This document shows, piece by piece, positions 46,609 through 54,338 of a stretch of DNA of 64,000 nucleotides. Below the pieces are notes generated by a model that saw only the letters and a list, made by a program, of their open reading frames with translations, had not been told where the DNA came from and did no database searches. The stretch comes from Rubripirellula tenax (lineage in GTDB: Bacteria > Planctomycetota > Planctomycetia > Pirellulales > Pirellulaceae), in contig NZ_SJPW01000001.1 in NCBI RefSeq assembly GCF_007860125.1, forward strand, positions 1,016,104 through 1,080,103, written 5' to 3'. The translations under genes and the position numbers were made by a program. Positions within the stretch are counted from its first letter, which is position 1; each line of letters begins with the position of its first letter.

Positions 46609-48162
46609 ATGCCACTCGCCCTGCAATGTCCGCGATGTCACGGTTCGGTCTCCGTCGCCGACGACGCGGCCGGCCAACGAGTGACGTGCCCACATTGTGA
46701 AAAACCGTTTTTGGCACCCGGCGTGGCCGCTTCCACGAAGGACGATGACGATTGGCTGAAATTGGATGATGACGCGATGCCCGCGGCCGTCCCAGTGGTC
46801 GCGGCAGCCGCGAAATCGTCGTCTCCCGAAAAATCACCGCCTGAAAAAAAGCCGCCGCAAAAATCACCACAAGCCAATACGCTCGGTTCTCTGCCGTTCG
46901 ATGATGTCGATTTTGATAACGTCGACGTCGGTGACTTGAAAATGCCGGACCAGTTCAAGGTTCGCGATGCTAAACCGGTCACAAAGCCCAAAGGGGTGTC
47001 CGATGACGACGCTCTGTTGGCGGAGTTCACCAGTGACCTGGATGAATTCACCGCAAAAGCCGAAACCGTTCCTGCCGCAAAGGCGCCCGCCGCACCCGTG
47101 AAGCCGGCCGCACCCGTGGCGAAGCCCGTCGCACCGACACACGCATCCGAGTTCCGAGTCATCTGCAGCATCTGCAGTTCGGTCTCGTACGCTAAAGCTG
47201 CTCAATCGGGCAAGACGATCACGTGTCCCGATTGCCATTCGCCCATCCTGGTACCACCACCACCCAAGATCCGACCCAAAGTCGAGATGAACTTGGACGA
47301 GGCCGCGTCGTTCCAATTCGAACAAAGCCCGATCAATGATCGTCGCCCCGATCCGTATGCGAAATCGGCCGCCGACTTGTTGGAAGAAGCGTCGCGAGAA
47401 GAAGTCGTTAGCGGCCCACACAAGTACGAAGACGAACCCGACCTCAAAGAATGGTTCGTTAGCGTCTTTGGCGTCTTCACCGATCCGGGCGTTGTCATGC
47501 ACTGGATTGCGATTTCGATTTTGGCCGCGGTGCCAGCGTTCTTCATCCTGTCGACCGACATATCGATTTTGCGATTGGCCATGATCGGCGGCGGCACCAT
47601 CCTGGGCGGCATCGTCGTCAGTTGTGGGTTCGCGATCCTTCAATCGGTCGCCAACCAAGAAGAACGCGTTTCCGAGTGGCCGGTGTTTGATCCCTTTGGT
47701 TGGCTTGGCACGTTGTTCGTTGCTCTGGCCGCGGCGGGTGTGGCTGTCGTGCCCGTTTGGATGGCGTGCTCGTTTGTGTTTGGCCAAAGTCTGATCAGCG
47801 TCGCGATCACCATGTTTTCGGTCTACGCACTCTTCCCGTTTGTGCTGCTGTCGATGTTGGACATGGAAAGCCCCTTCGTTCCGTTCTCGGCCGAAGTCGC
47901 GCGCAGTGTTACCAAATGCCAAGAGTCATGGGGCGGATTCTATTTCAGCAGCGGTTTGCTCTTCGTCTGTCTGTTCTTGTTGTTGGCGACCCTGTCCACC
48001 ATGGAACCACCCATCGCATCCGCGATCGCGATCTTTGCGGTCATCTTCATCGCGTTTACCTACTTTGCGATGATCGGACGCTTGGCGTACTCGATCGGCC
48101 AAAGCGTCAACGCACCGCCGATGGAAAACGACATCGATCGAACTCGCCAATTGCCGGACTGA
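46609..48162 (+). CDS. Membrane protein with two zinc ribbons
   Basis: A 517-residue protein. It opens with LQCPRCHGSVSVADDAAG and VTCPHCEKPF, a CxxC...CxxC zinc ribbon. A second ribbon follows near residue 183 (VICSICSSVSY, ITCPDCHSPILVP). A Lys/Pro/Ala-rich low-complexity region lies between them. The C-terminal 220 residues have about six hydrophobic helices (HWIAISILAAVPAFFILS, LGTLFVALAAAGVAVVPVWM, SAIAIFAVIFIAFTYFAM). The fold resembles planctomycete zinc-finger-plus-membrane proteins of unknown role. The ribbons may act on nucleic acids or regulate the membrane domain. Confidence 0.7.
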   Translation: MPLALQCPRCHGSVSVADDAAGQRVTCPHCEKPFLAPGVAASTKDDDDWLKLDDDAMPAAVPVVAAAAKSSSPEKSPPEKKPPQKSPQANTLGSLPFDDVDFDNVDVGDLKMPDQFKVRDAKPVTKPKGVSDDDALLAEFTSDLDEFTAKAETVPAAKAPAAPVKPAAPVAKPVAPTHASEFRVICSICSSVSYAKAAQSGKTITCPDCHSPILVPPPPKIRPKVEMNLDEAASFQFEQSPINDRRPDPYAKSAADLLEEASREEVVSGPHKYEDEPDLKEWFVSVFGVFTDPGVVMHWIAISILAAVPAFFILSTDISILRLAMIGGGTILGGIVVSCGFAILQSVANQEERVSEWPVFDPFGWLGTLFVALAAAGVAVVPVWMACSFVFGQSLISVAITMFSVYALFPFVLLSMLDMESPFVPFSAEVARSVTKCQESWGGFYFSSGLLFVCLFLLLATLSTMEPPIASAIAIFAVIFIAFTYFAMIGRLAYSIGQSVNAPPMENDIDRTRQLPD

Positions 48163-48185: not shown

Positions 48186-50114
48186 TCAGATCGCCTGCAG
48201 CAGCCGAACCCAATCCAGCAATCCGAGCCGTTTGATCTTGCCGCCCAACACGACCGGATAGCCGGCCGATTTGATCGATGCGGACCAAGTCGGTAACGCA
48301 TTTTCGTTTTCGACCGGCATCATCACCTGCAACGAAGCCGACGGCTCGTTCTCGCGAAGTCGCACCGCGGGCGGGCGAGTCTCACCCGACACGGCAACGC
48401 CAAAGAACGTTTTACTTTGCGAGATCGCGGCGGCCAGCGCCATCGAATCCGCAGCCGTTGCGTCGTTGCCGTGAACGCCGCCGACCGAGGCAACCGCAAC
48501 CGCGACCGGGTTGATGGCAGCCTTCTTCGTCATTGCGGCGGCAAAACTTGCGACCACTTCCAACTCTTTGGGTTGCCATTTGGACGAGTCTTCGGGGGCG
48601 ACCACACAGACGACCACGCCAGCGGTCTGTGCCGCCTGTTTCCAATCATCGGCAGTCGCTTCTGGGTTTCCGTCGCCCGGTCCGAGCAACAGAACCAACA
48701 ATCCCATATCCGTCCACGATCCATCGTCCGACTTTGGCGCCACATAAAAAGCGGTGTTGGCAGCTTCCGGCAATTTGATCTCGGTCGTCGGCCACGGATC
48801 GACTTTTTCCCGTCGCCAAGATGCAGGCACGCTTTCGTCGATAACACCACCGATCGTTTGTGGCACCACGGACGCTTGCTCGGTCGCTTCGCCACGTTGG
48901 TATGTCAACGACAGCGGCTCGTCGGGCTGGGCCGAAATCAATTGGCGACGCAACGTGTCGGCATTGTCGATCACAACATCGTTGATCTTCAAAATCACGT
49001 CACCCGCTTTCAACGAATCGGCGGCCGGTGAACCGGGAACCACGTCCGCCAACGACGGCTCGCCATTATTGTTTTTAACGATCACGCCCAATCGTTGCGG
49101 CTCCAGCGGCGGAATCGTGTCCGCCAGCGTCACTTGCATTTCGATCGTCTTGCCCGCGCGCTGGACCTTTACCGGGACCACCTCGCCGGCATCAAAGCTG
49201 CCCAGGACCTGACGAATCCCTTGCTGACGTTTCACTTCGATACCGTTGACCGAAAGGACTCGGTCGCCGGCGCGGATGCCGGCCGCCTCGGCGGGCGACC
49301 GAATTCGCACTGCCGCAATCTCGGTATTCAATTCGTTGGGGTCTTTGCTTTTGGCAACGATACCAAGCAGCCCTTTCTTGATGGCTTGCCCCGATTTCAA
49401 TCGATCCAATTTCTGGGCAATCACTTCGGCGGGAATCGCAAACGCAACGCCCGAGTCGTACCAGTCGGTCGAACTCTCGGCACCACCTTCGGCCACCGCC
49501 GGAATCAAAATGCCCAAAACGTTACCGTACAAGTCGACCAACGGAGCACCGTATAGCGACGCTGAAACGCGAGCGTCCGTTTGGATCGCGATCCCGTCCA
49601 ATCGACCTTCCGCGCTAAGAATTCCGGTGCTGATCAACGGCACGCCCTTGTTTCCGTAGCGCCCGACCGCAATCGTGGTCTGCCCGACCTGCCTTTTCAC
49701 AGCATGATCCAACGGCAACCCAACCAAGGGCTTGTCGGTTTTGATTTCTAACAGCACCAAATCACGATGCTCATCCCGCGCGACCACCTTTGCCGTTTCT
49801 CGCGTGCCATCGGAAAGGACCACCAAGATGCTGGCGGCCGGTTTCGATGCCACGATGCTGGACGCGATCACGTACGCAACGTCGCCATCGACATCGACGA
49901 TTGCCCCCGACGTCGGGGCGTCTTGTTCGACTTCGCCTTGCCCGCCCTCGCTGGTCCCGATGATTTCGATCATCACCACCGAAGGCAGCACACGCCCGGA
50001 CGCCGCGCGAACCGCCGACGCCATCGCCCGCTGGTACTGGGCATCGTCGGCATCGGATTCACTGCACGCAGCGAACGCCAGCAACAACGCGAAAATATTT
50101 TTCCACACACTCAT
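48186..50114 (-). CDS. HtrA-like pseudoprotease with two PDZ domains
   Basis: A 642-residue exported protein. The chymotrypsin-like fold spans about residues 40-240. At the catalytic histidine site, YVIASSIVA replaces the usual TNxHV (Ile87). Asp118 is kept in RDLVLLEI. At the serine site SASLYGAPLVD replaces GNSGGPLVD, putting Tyr188 at the nucleophile. It should therefore have no protease activity. PDZ domains lie near 244-330 (IRAGDRVLSVNGIEV) and 340-410 (LKAGDVILKINDVVID). A C-terminal region of about 230 residues has no recognised family. Its ATG overlaps the upstream stop by ATGA. Confidence 0.8.
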   Translation of the reverse strand: MSVWKNIFALLLAFAACSESDADDAQYQRAMASAVRAASGRVLPSVVMIEIIGTSEGGQGEVEQDAPTSGAIVDVDGDVAYVIASSIVASKPAASILVVLSDGTRETAKVVARDEHRDLVLLEIKTDKPLVGLPLDHAVKRQVGQTTIAVGRYGNKGVPLISTGILSAEGRLDGIAIQTDARVSASLYGAPLVDLYGNVLGILIPAVAEGGAESSTDWYDSGVAFAIPAEVIAQKLDRLKSGQAIKKGLLGIVAKSKDPNELNTEIAAVRIRSPAEAAGIRAGDRVLSVNGIEVKRQQGIRQVLGSFDAGEVVPVKVQRAGKTIEMQVTLADTIPPLEPQRLGVIVKNNNGEPSLADVVPGSPAADSLKAGDVILKINDVVIDNADTLRRQLISAQPDEPLSLTYQRGEATEQASVVPQTIGGVIDESVPASWRREKVDPWPTTEIKLPEAANTAFYVAPKSDDGSWTDMGLLVLLLGPGDGNPEATADDWKQAAQTAGVVVCVVAPEDSSKWQPKELEVVASFAAAMTKKAAINPVAVAVASVGGVHGNDATAADSMALAAAISQSKTFFGVAVSGETRPPAVRLRENEPSASLQVMMPVENENALPTWSASIKSAGYPVVLGGKIKRLGLLDWVRLLQAI

Positions 50115-51217
50115 GGTCGCAGCACCAAGTTCAAAATTTCGCTGTCACGTTGCACAGTAAGATTCAAATCGTCACGTCGGTCGATCGTTCGCAACCACCG
50201 AAGCAACCCACGCTGGCTCTCGACGCGCGTCCCGTTGACCAACAAGATCAAGTCGTCGGGGCGCAATCCCGCCCGCGCCGCAGCCGACGTTTCACGAACT
50301 TCATCGATGAACGCCGGCGTCGTTTCCAAAACATCGGGAACCATCACGACCCCCATTGTCACAAAGTCGTGTGATTTTCCGCGTTCCAGGATCGGTGTCT
50401 TTTCCGGCGGAGCCGATGTACGTCGACCCGCGATGATGTCACCAATCGTGGAACGAAGCGAAGCGGCCGGCATGGCATAGTTCAACCAAACACCGGTTGC
50501 CGAATCACGCAGTTCTTTCCCCAACATTCCGACCAATTGACCGTCGGCGTCCACCACCGCGCCGCCGGCGGCACCCGGATTGTTGGCGATCAGGTCCAAG
50601 ATCAAAACATCACCCTGATAGGGAGTCTTGAATGTCCCGCGTCGCGCGTCCAATTGAGTCACCGAGGCAACACTGCCCTGCATCACGCTGGCCGGTTCGT
50701 CGCCAGTGGCAATGTTGAACAAGTTGCTGATCGCAATCACCGGGTCGCCCCACTGGACCGACGTTTCCGATTCGACTTTGAAGTAAGGCAGTTCGGACGC
50801 TTCGATCTTCAACACCGCCAACTCAAGCGACGGTTCAAAGCCGACGATCTTCGACTCGAAGCGACGACCATCGTCAAGTTGCACGATGGGTTCGACGTCA
50901 AGCACGTAACTCCAAGCCGTCGCGATGTGCCCGTCCGGCGACACTAAAAAACCCGATTGGTAGGCTTCGAGTCCCTTCAATCCGCCGGCACCATAGACCT
51001 TCACAACCCGTCGCTGAGCATCACGCGACCAAACGCCAAGGGACCCTTGGGCTAGCTGAGGCACCTGTGCCAACTGAGACACCTGCGCCATCGCGGGTGC
51101 CGAAATCAAAACGCACGTGATCAGCACGCCGAATCGGGTCATCACCGCGCGGGATGATGAAACACGACTCGCACGGGCGCGATGCTGTGATCGGAAAAAC
51201 GATGCGGAAACATTCAT
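50111..51217 (-). CDS. HtrA-like pseudoprotease with one PDZ domain
   Basis: About 368 residues from the ATG at 51217, which overlaps the upstream stop as ATGA; an ATG at 51262 would overlap by 49 bases. The signal peptide is long (FGVLITCVLISAPAMAQ). The trypsin-like fold (YQSGFLVSPDGHIATAWSYV, FESKIVGFEPSLELAVLKIE, NNPGAAGGAVVDADGQLVGM) is close to HtrA along its length. All three triad positions are changed: His to Ser103, Asp to Glu132, Ser to Ala217. One PDZ domain lies near 285-365 (AGLRPDDLILLVNGTRV). It should be catalytically dead. Confidence 0.82.
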   Translation of the reverse strand: MNVSASFFRSQHRARASRVSSSRAVMTRFGVLITCVLISAPAMAQVSQLAQVPQLAQGSLGVWSRDAQRRVVKVYGAGGLKGLEAYQSGFLVSPDGHIATAWSYVLDVEPIVQLDDGRRFESKIVGFEPSLELAVLKIEASELPYFKVESETSVQWGDPVIAISNLFNIATGDEPASVMQGSVASVTQLDARRGTFKTPYQGDVLILDLIANNPGAAGGAVVDADGQLVGMLGKELRDSATGVWLNYAMPAASLRSTIGDIIAGRRTSAPPEKTPILERGKSHDFVTMGVVMVPDVLETTPAFIDEVRETSAAARAGLRPDDLILLVNGTRVESQRGLLRWLRTIDRRDDLNLTVQRDSEILNLVLRP

Positions 51218-53061
51218 GACTTCGGTTCCTCTTCGAGTTCCGATTCGGGAATCGAATTCCATGACGTGACATTCACCTTCAACAGCGTTGCAGTGCCGTA
51301 TCGCAAATCCAACGCCGTCGGCATCGTTGTCACATCGTCGTTGTCACGGACGATCCACAATTCCGCCGGGTCTTCATCGCGATCGGCGAATGCTTCGATG
51401 GCTTCGACGACAGCCGAATCGGGATGCGACAGAAAACGCGTTTCGATCTCGCCATCGATGCCGATGACACAGTCGCGAAGTGGACGCTGACCGCCCAAAG
51501 GCATCGTACCCCAGTAGAACGTTTCGCCGAATCGATCCGGACCCACCGCGATCATGCGTCGCCAAGCGTCCAGCGCCGCCAACATGCCGACCGGCGACCG
51601 GCGGGTCACGGCTTCGTACAATTCGTTTTTTGTGTCGATCTGCACCGGACGATCGCCCACGAACATCACCATCTTTTTCGACGAGACACGAATCTTGACC
51701 GGCTTCGCATCGGCATCGGCTGTTACGCCCTCGATCACCCATGCCAGGGGCGAGTCCGCGTCGTTCGCTTTCGTGCTTTTTGATTCTGCGACTGGAAACT
51801 GATTCCGGAGCGATTCGATAAACGATCGTTGGCGAACTTGATTGAAGTGATAGTTCGCATAGCCTTTGCGTTCGATCAATTGATCCTTGATCGACTTCGG
51901 AATCTCGCCGCCGCCGTGCGCTTCATTCTCCGGTGCAGGCGTTGGTCCACCGCCTTCGAGATCCTTTTCGCCGTCGCCTTCATCATCGTTGGGCTCGGGT
52001 TCTTCGCGAGGCGGCGGAGGCGGAAGGGCACCGGCCATCTTTTCCAGTAACTCGTCTGGCGAATGCACGCTTGCCAATCGAACCAGCGTGTCGCGGCTTT
52101 CGCCGCTGATGCGATAGCGAATCGGAATCCGCCAACCGGCCGGGAACGTCGCCAACACGTTCTGAACATCGTTGGCCGTTTGCACGACTCGACCGTCGAT
52201 CTCGGTGATCTCGGCGCCGTACCGAAGTCCGCGGCGATATGCATCGCTGGATTCCAAAATGTTCGTCACCCTGGCGCCACCATCCGGGTCGGTTCCGACG
52301 GTCGCGCCCAGCGTTGCGTGATCGACGATGCGGCCGGAATGCAATGCACCCAGAAAATTTTGGGCTTGGTTGATCGAGATCGCGTAGCCGACGCCCACAT
52401 TCACTCGGCCACGTTTCTCGAACGAGCAACGGCCGACGATACCCAACAGTTTTCCGGTTGCGTCATAGATCGGCCCGCCCGAGTTGCCGGGGTTGATCGA
52501 CGCATCGGTCTGCAAACAATCGCCGTATTCCAACAACGTCCCCGACGGATACTGATACCGACCGACGCCGCTAAGGATTCCGTAGGTGACCGTGGGTTGC
52601 AAGTTCGTCGCCAGCAAAAACGGGTTGCCGATCACCATGCACCAATCGCCCGGCTGGGCGGCCCGGCTGCTGCCGATCGTGGCGGCGGGAAAGTCGCTGC
52701 GTGGTTTGCCGTCCAAGCCGATCAACTGAATCATTGCCAGATCGCCGACCGGATCGATGCCGACGATCACGGCGTCGTAGATATTGCCATCGCTCAACCC
52801 GCATCGCATGAACGTTCCGGCGGGACTGGTGACGTGAAAGTTGGTCAGGGCATAACCAGCCGGCGAGACCAACACGCCGCTGCCGCCACCCCCGCCACCG
52901 GGCACAAACACGCTGACCGCGGAAGGCCTCGCGCGATCGATCGCCTCGATGCGACTGTTTTCCGCATCTCGCACGATCGCGGGAAGCTCCAACGGAACGT
53001 CCGCACACGCCAGCGAAGTCGTCAACAGCGCACAGAAGAACGCACGAACAAAAATGGTCAT
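51214..53061 (-). CDS. HtrA/DegP-like serine protease, intact triad
   Basis: About 615 residues from ATG at 53061 with a signal peptide (FVRAFFCALLTTSLACA). The HtrA catalytic domain has YALTNFHVTSP (His76), IDPVGDLAMIQL (Asp107) and INPGNSGGPIYD (Ser194), so the protease should be active. A PDZ domain follows (RRGLRYGAEITEIDGRVVQT). A proline/glycine and acidic linker (about residues 346-390) leads to a C-terminal domain of about 225 residues with no family recognised. It likely handles misfolded or specific substrates outside the cytoplasm. It is first of three HtrA-like genes. Confidence 0.88.
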   Translation of the reverse strand: MTIFVRAFFCALLTTSLACADVPLELPAIVRDAENSRIEAIDRARPSAVSVFVPGGGGGGSGVLVSPAGYALTNFHVTSPAGTFMRCGLSDGNIYDAVIVGIDPVGDLAMIQLIGLDGKPRSDFPAATIGSSRAAQPGDWCMVIGNPFLLATNLQPTVTYGILSGVGRYQYPSGTLLEYGDCLQTDASINPGNSGGPIYDATGKLLGIVGRCSFEKRGRVNVGVGYAISINQAQNFLGALHSGRIVDHATLGATVGTDPDGGARVTNILESSDAYRRGLRYGAEITEIDGRVVQTANDVQNVLATFPAGWRIPIRYRISGESRDTLVRLASVHSPDELLEKMAGALPPPPPREEPEPNDDEGDGEKDLEGGGPTPAPENEAHGGGEIPKSIKDQLIERKGYANYHFNQVRQRSFIESLRNQFPVAESKSTKANDADSPLAWVIEGVTADADAKPVKIRVSSKKMVMFVGDRPVQIDTKNELYEAVTRRSPVGMLAALDAWRRMIAVGPDRFGETFYWGTMPLGGQRPLRDCVIGIDGEIETRFLSHPDSAVVEAIEAFADRDEDPAELWIVRDNDDVTTMPTALDLRYGTATLLKVNVTSWNSIPESELEEEPKS

Positions 53062-53135
53062 CAAACGAAGCTTCCTAAAAGTTTCTATCGAACGGCATCG
53101 ATTCTGTGTCGATACGAGGTCTCACGTCAACAATC

Positions 53136-54338
53136 TCACTTCAACAGTCGCGGTCGCAGCACAACGATGCTGTCCCCGAGGTCTCCGTCGCCTCGACTAT
53201 CGACTTCGATCGACAAACGTCTCGCACCGTTGACCGGGATTTCGAAACCGCGAAGTTCCGCGTCACCGAGCGACTGTTCCCAAACGTTTTTCCCGTCCAT
53301 TTCGATTAGCACCATGACTTCACCGGCTGCCACCACGTCGTTGGCTCGGCGGACGCTGCCGGTAAAGATTTCAAAGCCATCGGCAACGCGATACTCGACT
53401 CTGCAGCCACCGTGCATCTGCAGGTTGCCTTCGTCGACGGTTGACGCCCCAAAGAAGGCTTGTGTCAACTCGGCGTCGACGCTGGTCGCAATGTAGGTTG
53501 ATATCGTTGATGCGGCCGGCTTCTCGTTGGCCAGCATCGACATGCCGCTGGTGAAGCGCATCGAAGCGATTTGATTGGGCGGCAGCTCGTGTTCGATACC
53601 CGACGACAGCTTCATCCGCAGCGGTTGTTCGGCTTCGGAATCCAGCAGCGCCGCGACCGACCACGTGGAACCATAGATATCGTCGACTCGAATATCGGCT
53701 TCGTCATCCACGCGGGCACCGCCGCCAAAGATAACGCCTTCCAGTTTCTCGATCGGCGCCGCAACGGCGTCGCCTTCCAATACGAAGTTGACTTTTGCGT
53801 CTGCGATGGTTTCGATGATGCCCGACGCGGGATCCAGTTTGTCGCCGGGGCGGCGGATCACCATCACATCGCCGCGAGATTCTTTTTCTAACAGCCCCAA
53901 CCACTGGGCGTCCGTCGCCGGTGAAGCGGGACGAAACCGGATCGCCTTGACCAACTTAACCGACGCGCGAATCGGACGCTGTCCACGCGGATCGATGACC
54001 AAGCCCGAGTCAGTCAGCGAAACGTCGTCGGCGGCTATCTTGGATCCGTCTGCCATCGTGACGCGAAACGTTGGACCGGTCGCATCGGTGTCTTCCGTCG
54101 GCATGACCGTTTGCAAATCGGCAAACGGAATGGATTGGATTTGGCCGTTGACTCTGACCCGCACCGACGAGCCAAGGATGCCGACCAGCGAACCTTCGAT
54201 CGCGGGCCCGGCCTGAGTTGCCATGCGGACCGGCAATTCGGCGGCCAAAACGAGTCGGTTTGCCGGCAACGTCGCAAACATTGCAATGACGTAGACGAGC
54301 GTCTGCCATCGGGGTTCTATCATCCGGGTCGCGGTCAA
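53136..54338 (-). CDS. Secreted NPCBM-domain protein
   Basis: A 400-residue exported protein. The TTG start at 54338 has AGGAG six bases upstream; an ATG at 54323 has none. The signal segment is TLVYVIAMFATLPANRLVLA. An N-terminal beta domain (IEGSLVGILGSSVRVRVNGQ) precedes strand-rich repeats. The C-terminal 100 residues match NPCBM, a carbohydrate-binding module (FEIFTGSVRRANDVV, VMVLIEMDGKNVWEQ, RRLSIEVDSRGDGDLGDS). It lies 74 bases upstream of the protease trio and may direct the complex to glycans. Confidence 0.75.
   Translation of the reverse strand: MTATRMIEPRWQTLVYVIAMFATLPANRLVLAAELPVRMATQAGPAIEGSLVGILGSSVRVRVNGQIQSIPFADLQTVMPTEDTDATGPTFRVTMADGSKIAADDVSLTDSGLVIDPRGQRPIRASVKLVKAIRFRPASPATDAQWLGLLEKESRGDVMVIRRPGDKLDPASGIIETIADAKVNFVLEGDAVAAPIEKLEGVIFGGGARVDDEADIRVDDIYGSTWSVAALLDSEAEQPLRMKLSSGIEHELPPNQIASMRFTSGMSMLANEKPAASTISTYIATSVDAELTQAFFGASTVDEGNLQMHGGCRVEYRVADGFEIFTGSVRRANDVVAAGEVMVLIEMDGKNVWEQSLGDAELRGFEIPVNGARRLSIEVDSRGDGDLGDSIVVLRPRLLK

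Follow-up and report, generated by a model that had tools for sequence, protein, structure and literature searches.

Gene Organization of the Locus

The window analysed here is a stretch of 64,000 nucleotides from the genome of Rubripirellula tenax, and the genes in question lie on its minus strand in the order N, A, B, C. The first of them, N (53136..54338), encodes an NPCBM-domain protein of 400 amino acids (Pfam NPCBM 32.2 bits, cut-off 23.9) and is located directly upstream of A, as the initial annotation had described. Gene A (51214..53064) encodes an intact HtrA-type protease with one weak PDZ and a C-terminal domain, and has two candidate start codons, TTG at 53064 or ATG at 53061. It is followed by B (50111..51217, ATG at 51217) and C (48186..50114), which encode HtrA-type pseudoproteases of 368 and 642 amino acids with one and two PDZ domains, respectively. 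Both junctions overlap as ATGA, at 51214..51217 between A and B and at 50111..50114 between B and C. Judged by eye, A, B, and C each start with a probable Sec signal peptide, which would mean Sec export of all three proteins. Downstream of C, the window carries a convergent gene (46609-48162), the product of which is hydrophobic in its C-terminal half and has zinc-ribbon-like motifs at the N-terminus, none of which reaches its Pfam cut-off.

Active Sites of the Three HtrA-Type Proteins

The Trypsin_2 domain was recognized in A, B, and C with 98.7, 76.8, and 60.1 bits, respectively (Pfam cut-off 27.6), and PDZ domains scored above the cut-off in B (one) and C (two) and just under it in A (22.0 vs. 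23.2 bits). The proteins thus share the HtrA/Deg (S1C) architecture of a trypsin-like domain with a C-terminal PDZ, while the His-Asp-Ser triad is present in A only. In A, the triad consists of His76 (codon 52834-52836), Asp107 (52741-52743), and Ser194 (52480-52482) when counted from the ATG at 53061, or of residues 77, 108, and 195 if translation starts at the TTG at 53064. In the HMMER alignment to solved DegP/DegQ-type chains, the triad columns are occupied in B by Ser103 (50909-50911), Glu132 (50822-50824), and Ala217 (50567-50569), and in C by Ile87 (49854-49856), Asp118 (49761-49763), and Tyr188 (49551-49553). The open reading frames and this alignment confirmed the three HtrA-like genes, the residues, and the ATGA junctions reported in the initial annotation, and no intact triad was found in either B or C. 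A misalignment of the triads was ruled out, as HMMER, MAFFT, and motif reading concurred.

Altogether 19 places in the same genome matched Trypsin_2, and 16 of these were outside the A-B-C set. A simple pattern detected both the His and the Ser motif in 12 of the 16 and left the other four undecided; therefore, dead domains are not the rule in this genome. An anti-phage role was considered and rejected, since A gave only weak RT-Protease matches (E-values of 6.1e-6 and 1.4e-4); B, C, and N gave none.

A second gene pair is present in the same genome (G000) on contig C7, at approximately 439703-442181 (L138:3704-6182). Its first frame of 451 amino acids encodes a trypsin-PDZ protein with His and Ser intact. 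In the second frame, of 363 amino acids, a PDZ-like stretch seems to lie between trypsin-like halves, DECGGP is found in place of the expected NSGGP, and the HV motif is absent. By its motifs, this looks like another pair of an active and a dead protein.

Conservation of the Active-Site Residues

Among the relatives, the complete triad was present in all 142 A proteins that could be read, that is, in 102/102 from near relatives (110 sequences) and in 40/40 from distant loci, where 33 triads were read by alignment and seven (family f56) with the His taken from the LTN(F/Y)HV motif. In B, the catalytic His was found in none of 112 near-relative sequences and the Ser in one of 111 readable ones; in the distant B proteins the corresponding figures were 3/40 and 0/40. 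His and Ser never occurred together (0/151). No near-relative C had the His (0/115), and the nucleophile position was taken by Tyr in 115/116 near and 36/36 distant sequences, 151/152 overall. The pattern search that yielded 60 of the 119 near-relative loci included the YGGPL motif of C, and those loci are therefore biased towards Tyr; among the loci that came from the profile search, where YGGPL was not used, 56 of the 57 C proteins that could be read had Tyr. The state of one intact protease with two dead paralogues, first proposed for this locus alone, thus persists in the relatives, and the recurrence of the triad replacements indicates more than chance.

The two pseudoproteases also differ at the oxyanion glycine, Gly193 in chymotrypsin numbering, in which the nucleophile is residue 195. 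This glycine was retained in all 151 readable B proteins (near 111/111, distant 40/40), whereas C had lost it in 151 of 152 cases and carried Gly in one. As B keeps Gly193, and C loses it yet keeps Tyr195, these are two different, preserved dead sites.

Distribution and Gene Order

To survey the near relatives, 60 genomes were searched with the B and C profiles, with E ≤1e-20 counted as strong for B and E ≤1e-30 for C. Strong B-family genes were found in 57 and strong C-family genes in 58 of the 60 genomes; two genomes (G035 and G052) had neither, and one (G026) had C alone, at a contig end. The regions from this profile search were combined with loci from a pattern search (80 retained of at least 570) into 119 distinct near-relative loci. 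These are loci and not genomes, two being second loci of genomes already counted, and for the 60 that came from the pattern search the membership in the order was confirmed for only part of the records. The genes A, B, and C were adjacent, on one strand, and in that order in 108 of the 119 loci, and the remaining 11 were mostly at contig ends. In one draft genome (G040), A-B and C lay on different contigs (L117 and L139), C with unrelated neighbours. The usual C slot was seen to be taken by other ORFs there. In three loci (L167, L181, and L198), C was found with no recognized B or A within the short upstream sequence. The loci L111, L136, and L137 contain a second, divergent kind of trio in which the C proteins are shorter; L136 and L137 come from genomes that also have the main trio.

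On a wider scale, the B profile matched with an E-value of 1e-50 or better in 257 of the 297 genomes of the class (counted from the listing); the 40 genomes with no such match include all 32 of family f21. It also matched at this level in 28 genomes outside the class, in a sample of 294 from the phylum. From these matches, 40 distant loci were taken, 25 from outside the class, 14 from other families within it, and one from the order, and A, B, and C were found together in 36 of them. In L245, L247, and L270, C was missing within the stretch examined, and L254 stops at a contig end. The three genes thus stayed together in most of the loci surveyed, as expected from the initial annotation, but as C is apart in G040 and not beside A-B in L245, L247, and L270, its linkage is not invariable. 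Judged from this distribution, the A-B-C layout is old. An NPCBM gene was located upstream of A in 93 of the 99 near-relative loci with room for it (11 further loci had no room) and in 29 of 38 distant loci.

With GTGA and TTGA counted, exact four-nucleotide overlaps were present at the A/B junction in 56 and at the B/C junction in 44 of the 108 near-relative trios. Such overlaps are common but not universal, and an overlap by itself leaves the protein ratio unfixed. Hence, the fixed ratio of the three proteins that had been read from the ATGA junctions is not proven by them. For A and B, a fixed ratio is favoured by gene fusions. The two genes formed a single ORF in eight of the 40 distant loci, distributed over four families: f78 (4/4 fetched), f56 (2/9), f62 (1/2), and f51 (1/1), the loci being L258, L260, L268, L276, L270, L272, L254, and L277. 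The linkers of the fused proteins are 101-332 amino acids in length, and the LolA-like domain described below is unrecognizable in them. Such fusions are a classic mark of proteins in contact, and these ORFs favour a physical, fixed-ratio partnership of A and B.

Phylogeny and Selection

In a maximum-likelihood tree that was computed by a quick method from 123 domains and rooted at the midpoint, A, B, and C formed one clade each (SH-aLRT 100, 100, and 99, respectively), indicating that they are old specialized lineages and not decaying copies. A recent local tandem duplication was not supported, as in this tree the A/B/C split predates the sampled families. In seven close same-group pairs, the Nei-Gojobori dN/dS values were 0.04-0.13 for B (computable in 7/7), 0.05-0.24 for C (6/7), and 0.10-0.14 for A (5/7); these ratios are rough, because the frames were taken from stop to stop and most pairs had a dS close to 1 or higher. 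By these values, purifying selection acts on B and C. The degenerate triads, together with the occasional B protein that has one of the two residues (His in 3/40 distant, Ser in 1/111 near sequences), might be taken to mean that B and C are duplicates in decay, or that they are active via unusual residues. Given the purifying selection, the deep clades, and the fact that no B has both His and Ser, this is most improbable, and decaying pseudogenes are ruled out by the clades and the selection.

C-Terminal Domains of A and C

The C-terminal region of A, including the linker (51217..51951), was modelled by AlphaFold2 with a mean pLDDT of 88.8 (46 sequences). The best Foldseek matches of the model were RseB, LolA, LolB, LppX, and LprG, with low TM-scores of 0.19-0.42; at the top were RseB (E-value 8.6e-5, TM-score 0.23) and the LolA-superfamily protein NE2245 (E-value 2.2e-4, TM-score 0.42). 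DUF4292 was recognized in this region in 14 of 46 relatives and was absent from the A of the window. The predicted LolA/RseB-like fold is thus a weak match. The domain was recognized by HMM in 17 of 40 distant loci, and profile comparison backed its homology in f37/f40 (probability 94.7, E-value 5.8e-8) and gave no such support for f78, f56, and f62/f70.

The C-terminal region of C (48189..48842), with a mean pLDDT of 94.2 (47 sequences), is predicted to have an alpha/beta-hydrolase fold. Foldseek returned 490 matches with an E-value ≤0.001 (best 6.8e-7, TMq up to 0.61), and the 50 matches listed were mostly esterases, PETases, and peptidases. At the nucleophile elbow, G-x-S-x-G was present in none of the 47 C sequences, although other nucleophiles are possible there; the only such motif (L208) was near the C-terminus, away from the elbow. 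C of the Planctomycetia type would thus appear to contain a second dead enzyme domain. The extra domain was recognized by HMM in 13 of 40 distant loci, and its absence from distant C proteins means that it is not a core part of the set.

Proposed Function of the Set

The dead sites, their conservation, the synteny, the fusions, and the selection are observed directly, and the co-conservation of the set points to control of the live copy by the two dead ones. Reading these features together, we consider that A, B, and C probably constitute one envelope HtrA-type hetero-oligomer in which one subunit is active and the other two are non-catalytic regulators. A hetero-oligomer of this kind was the reading of the initial annotation, and the findings support it in part. 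In the assembly that we infer, A would be the sole protease of a Sec-exported envelope complex. With its oxyanion glycine retained and a PDZ present, the nucleophile-less B could still hold and present peptides that it does not cut, and scaffold A. With its PDZ domains and a locked, Tyr-plugged site that has no oxyanion glycine, C would be a second non-catalytic regulator or adaptor; the Tyr and the absent glycine suggest that the shut site could serve as a structural or inhibitory face. By analogy with MucB/RseB, the LolA/RseB-like domain of A may be a sensor of a lipid or lipoprotein ligand that gates proteolysis, and the NPCBM protein may anchor the three proteins to a glycan on the surface.

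HtrA proteases are assembled from trimers, and three paralogues could therefore form one heterotrimer. HtrA2, for example, is described as trimeric. An obligate A:B:C heterotrimer, with one active site beside a peptide-holding B and a Tyr-locked C and with the lipid-sensing domain on A, is a tentative version of this proposal, and by itself a doubtful one.

Two further explanations concern the relation of B and C to A. The proteins could be independent partners as in MamE/MamO, where B and C would be non-catalytic binders of metal, ligand, or substrate that share a pathway with A and influence it indirectly, with no complex. According to PMC4794232, the protease domain of MamO binds metal, the activation of MamE depends on the TauE domain of MamO, and the authors did not detect a MamE-MamO interaction; the not invariable linkage of C to A-B would also fit. 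However, Pfam found no TauE domain in A, B, or C, and the A-B fusion ORFs in four families favour direct contact, so that we regard independent partners as rather unlikely. Alternatively, B and C could be substrate-binding decoys or chaperone homo-oligomers, DegP-like and proteolysis-free, that are co-transcribed with A for dosage only. HtrA family members do act as chaperones, and the oxyanion glycine and PDZ of B would suit such a role, but the A-B fusions and the invariant ordered layout speak against it and make it an improbable explanation. Separate functions of the co-transcribed A, B, and C genes are possible.

Pseudoproteases are usually found singly, while here a live HtrA and two dead paralogues occur in order across many families. 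Two differently dead sites, each under selection, amount to a natural experiment on the role of dead protease domains. The set would allow a test of whether asymmetric heteromeric HtrA oligomers can be built, and it points to an uncharacterized envelope quality-control system in Planctomycetota. If the heterotrimer were true, an asymmetric envelope protease would have been kept across the phylum.

Comparison with Known Systems

Like A, B, and C, the DegP/DegQ proteins (Do family, MEROPS S1C) combine Trypsin_2 with a C-terminal PDZ; B and C differ from them in having no triad, and the scores in the NCBIfam Do model (A 175, B 107, C 162 bits) are well below its cut-off of 416 bits. The plant Deg5/Deg8 hetero-oligomer is a mixed Deg oligomer of paralogues in which the members are active. 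To our knowledge, neither this oligomer contains a dead tandem pair nor the DegS/RseB and AlgW/MucB relay any dead subunits. In that relay, RseB/MucB domains gate the cleavage by DegS/AlgW and release the client upon lipid binding, according to PMC7400510. The likeness to A lies in an HtrA protease with a PDZ, the cleavage of which is controlled by a LolA-fold lipid sensor; the difference is that A carries its LolA/RseB-like domain, a weak match, on the protease itself. In the DegS models of NCBIfam, which have cut-offs of 408 and 423 bits, the best scores were about 92-114 bits. The MamO model (cut-off 800 bits) gave 27.6, 44.8, and 33.5 bits for A, B, and C, and MamE scores were likewise far below the cut-off. 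Membership in MamE/MamO or DegS was therefore rejected.

Among the PMC open full texts, outside which most subscription papers fall, no planctomycete description of the A-B-C set was found. Two trypsin-domain surface proteins are reported for Tuwongella in PMC8567305 and are not identifiable with the set. For planctomycetes, the earlier statement that no case with this exact layout was known held within these texts; the related principle has been published for MamE/MamO (PMC4794232). This closest precedent, an active HtrA together with a dead HtrA that is needed for its activity, means that the principle is already described. According to PMC4794232, MamE-dependent proteolysis requires MamO to be present but does not need the MamO triad. 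As in the A-B-C set, an active HtrA is encoded with a dead HtrA paralogue, and the pattern of duplication and loss of activity is recurrent. What distinguishes the planctomycete set from MamE/MamO is its two distinct dead families, the fixed three-gene order phylum-wide, and the A-B fusions.
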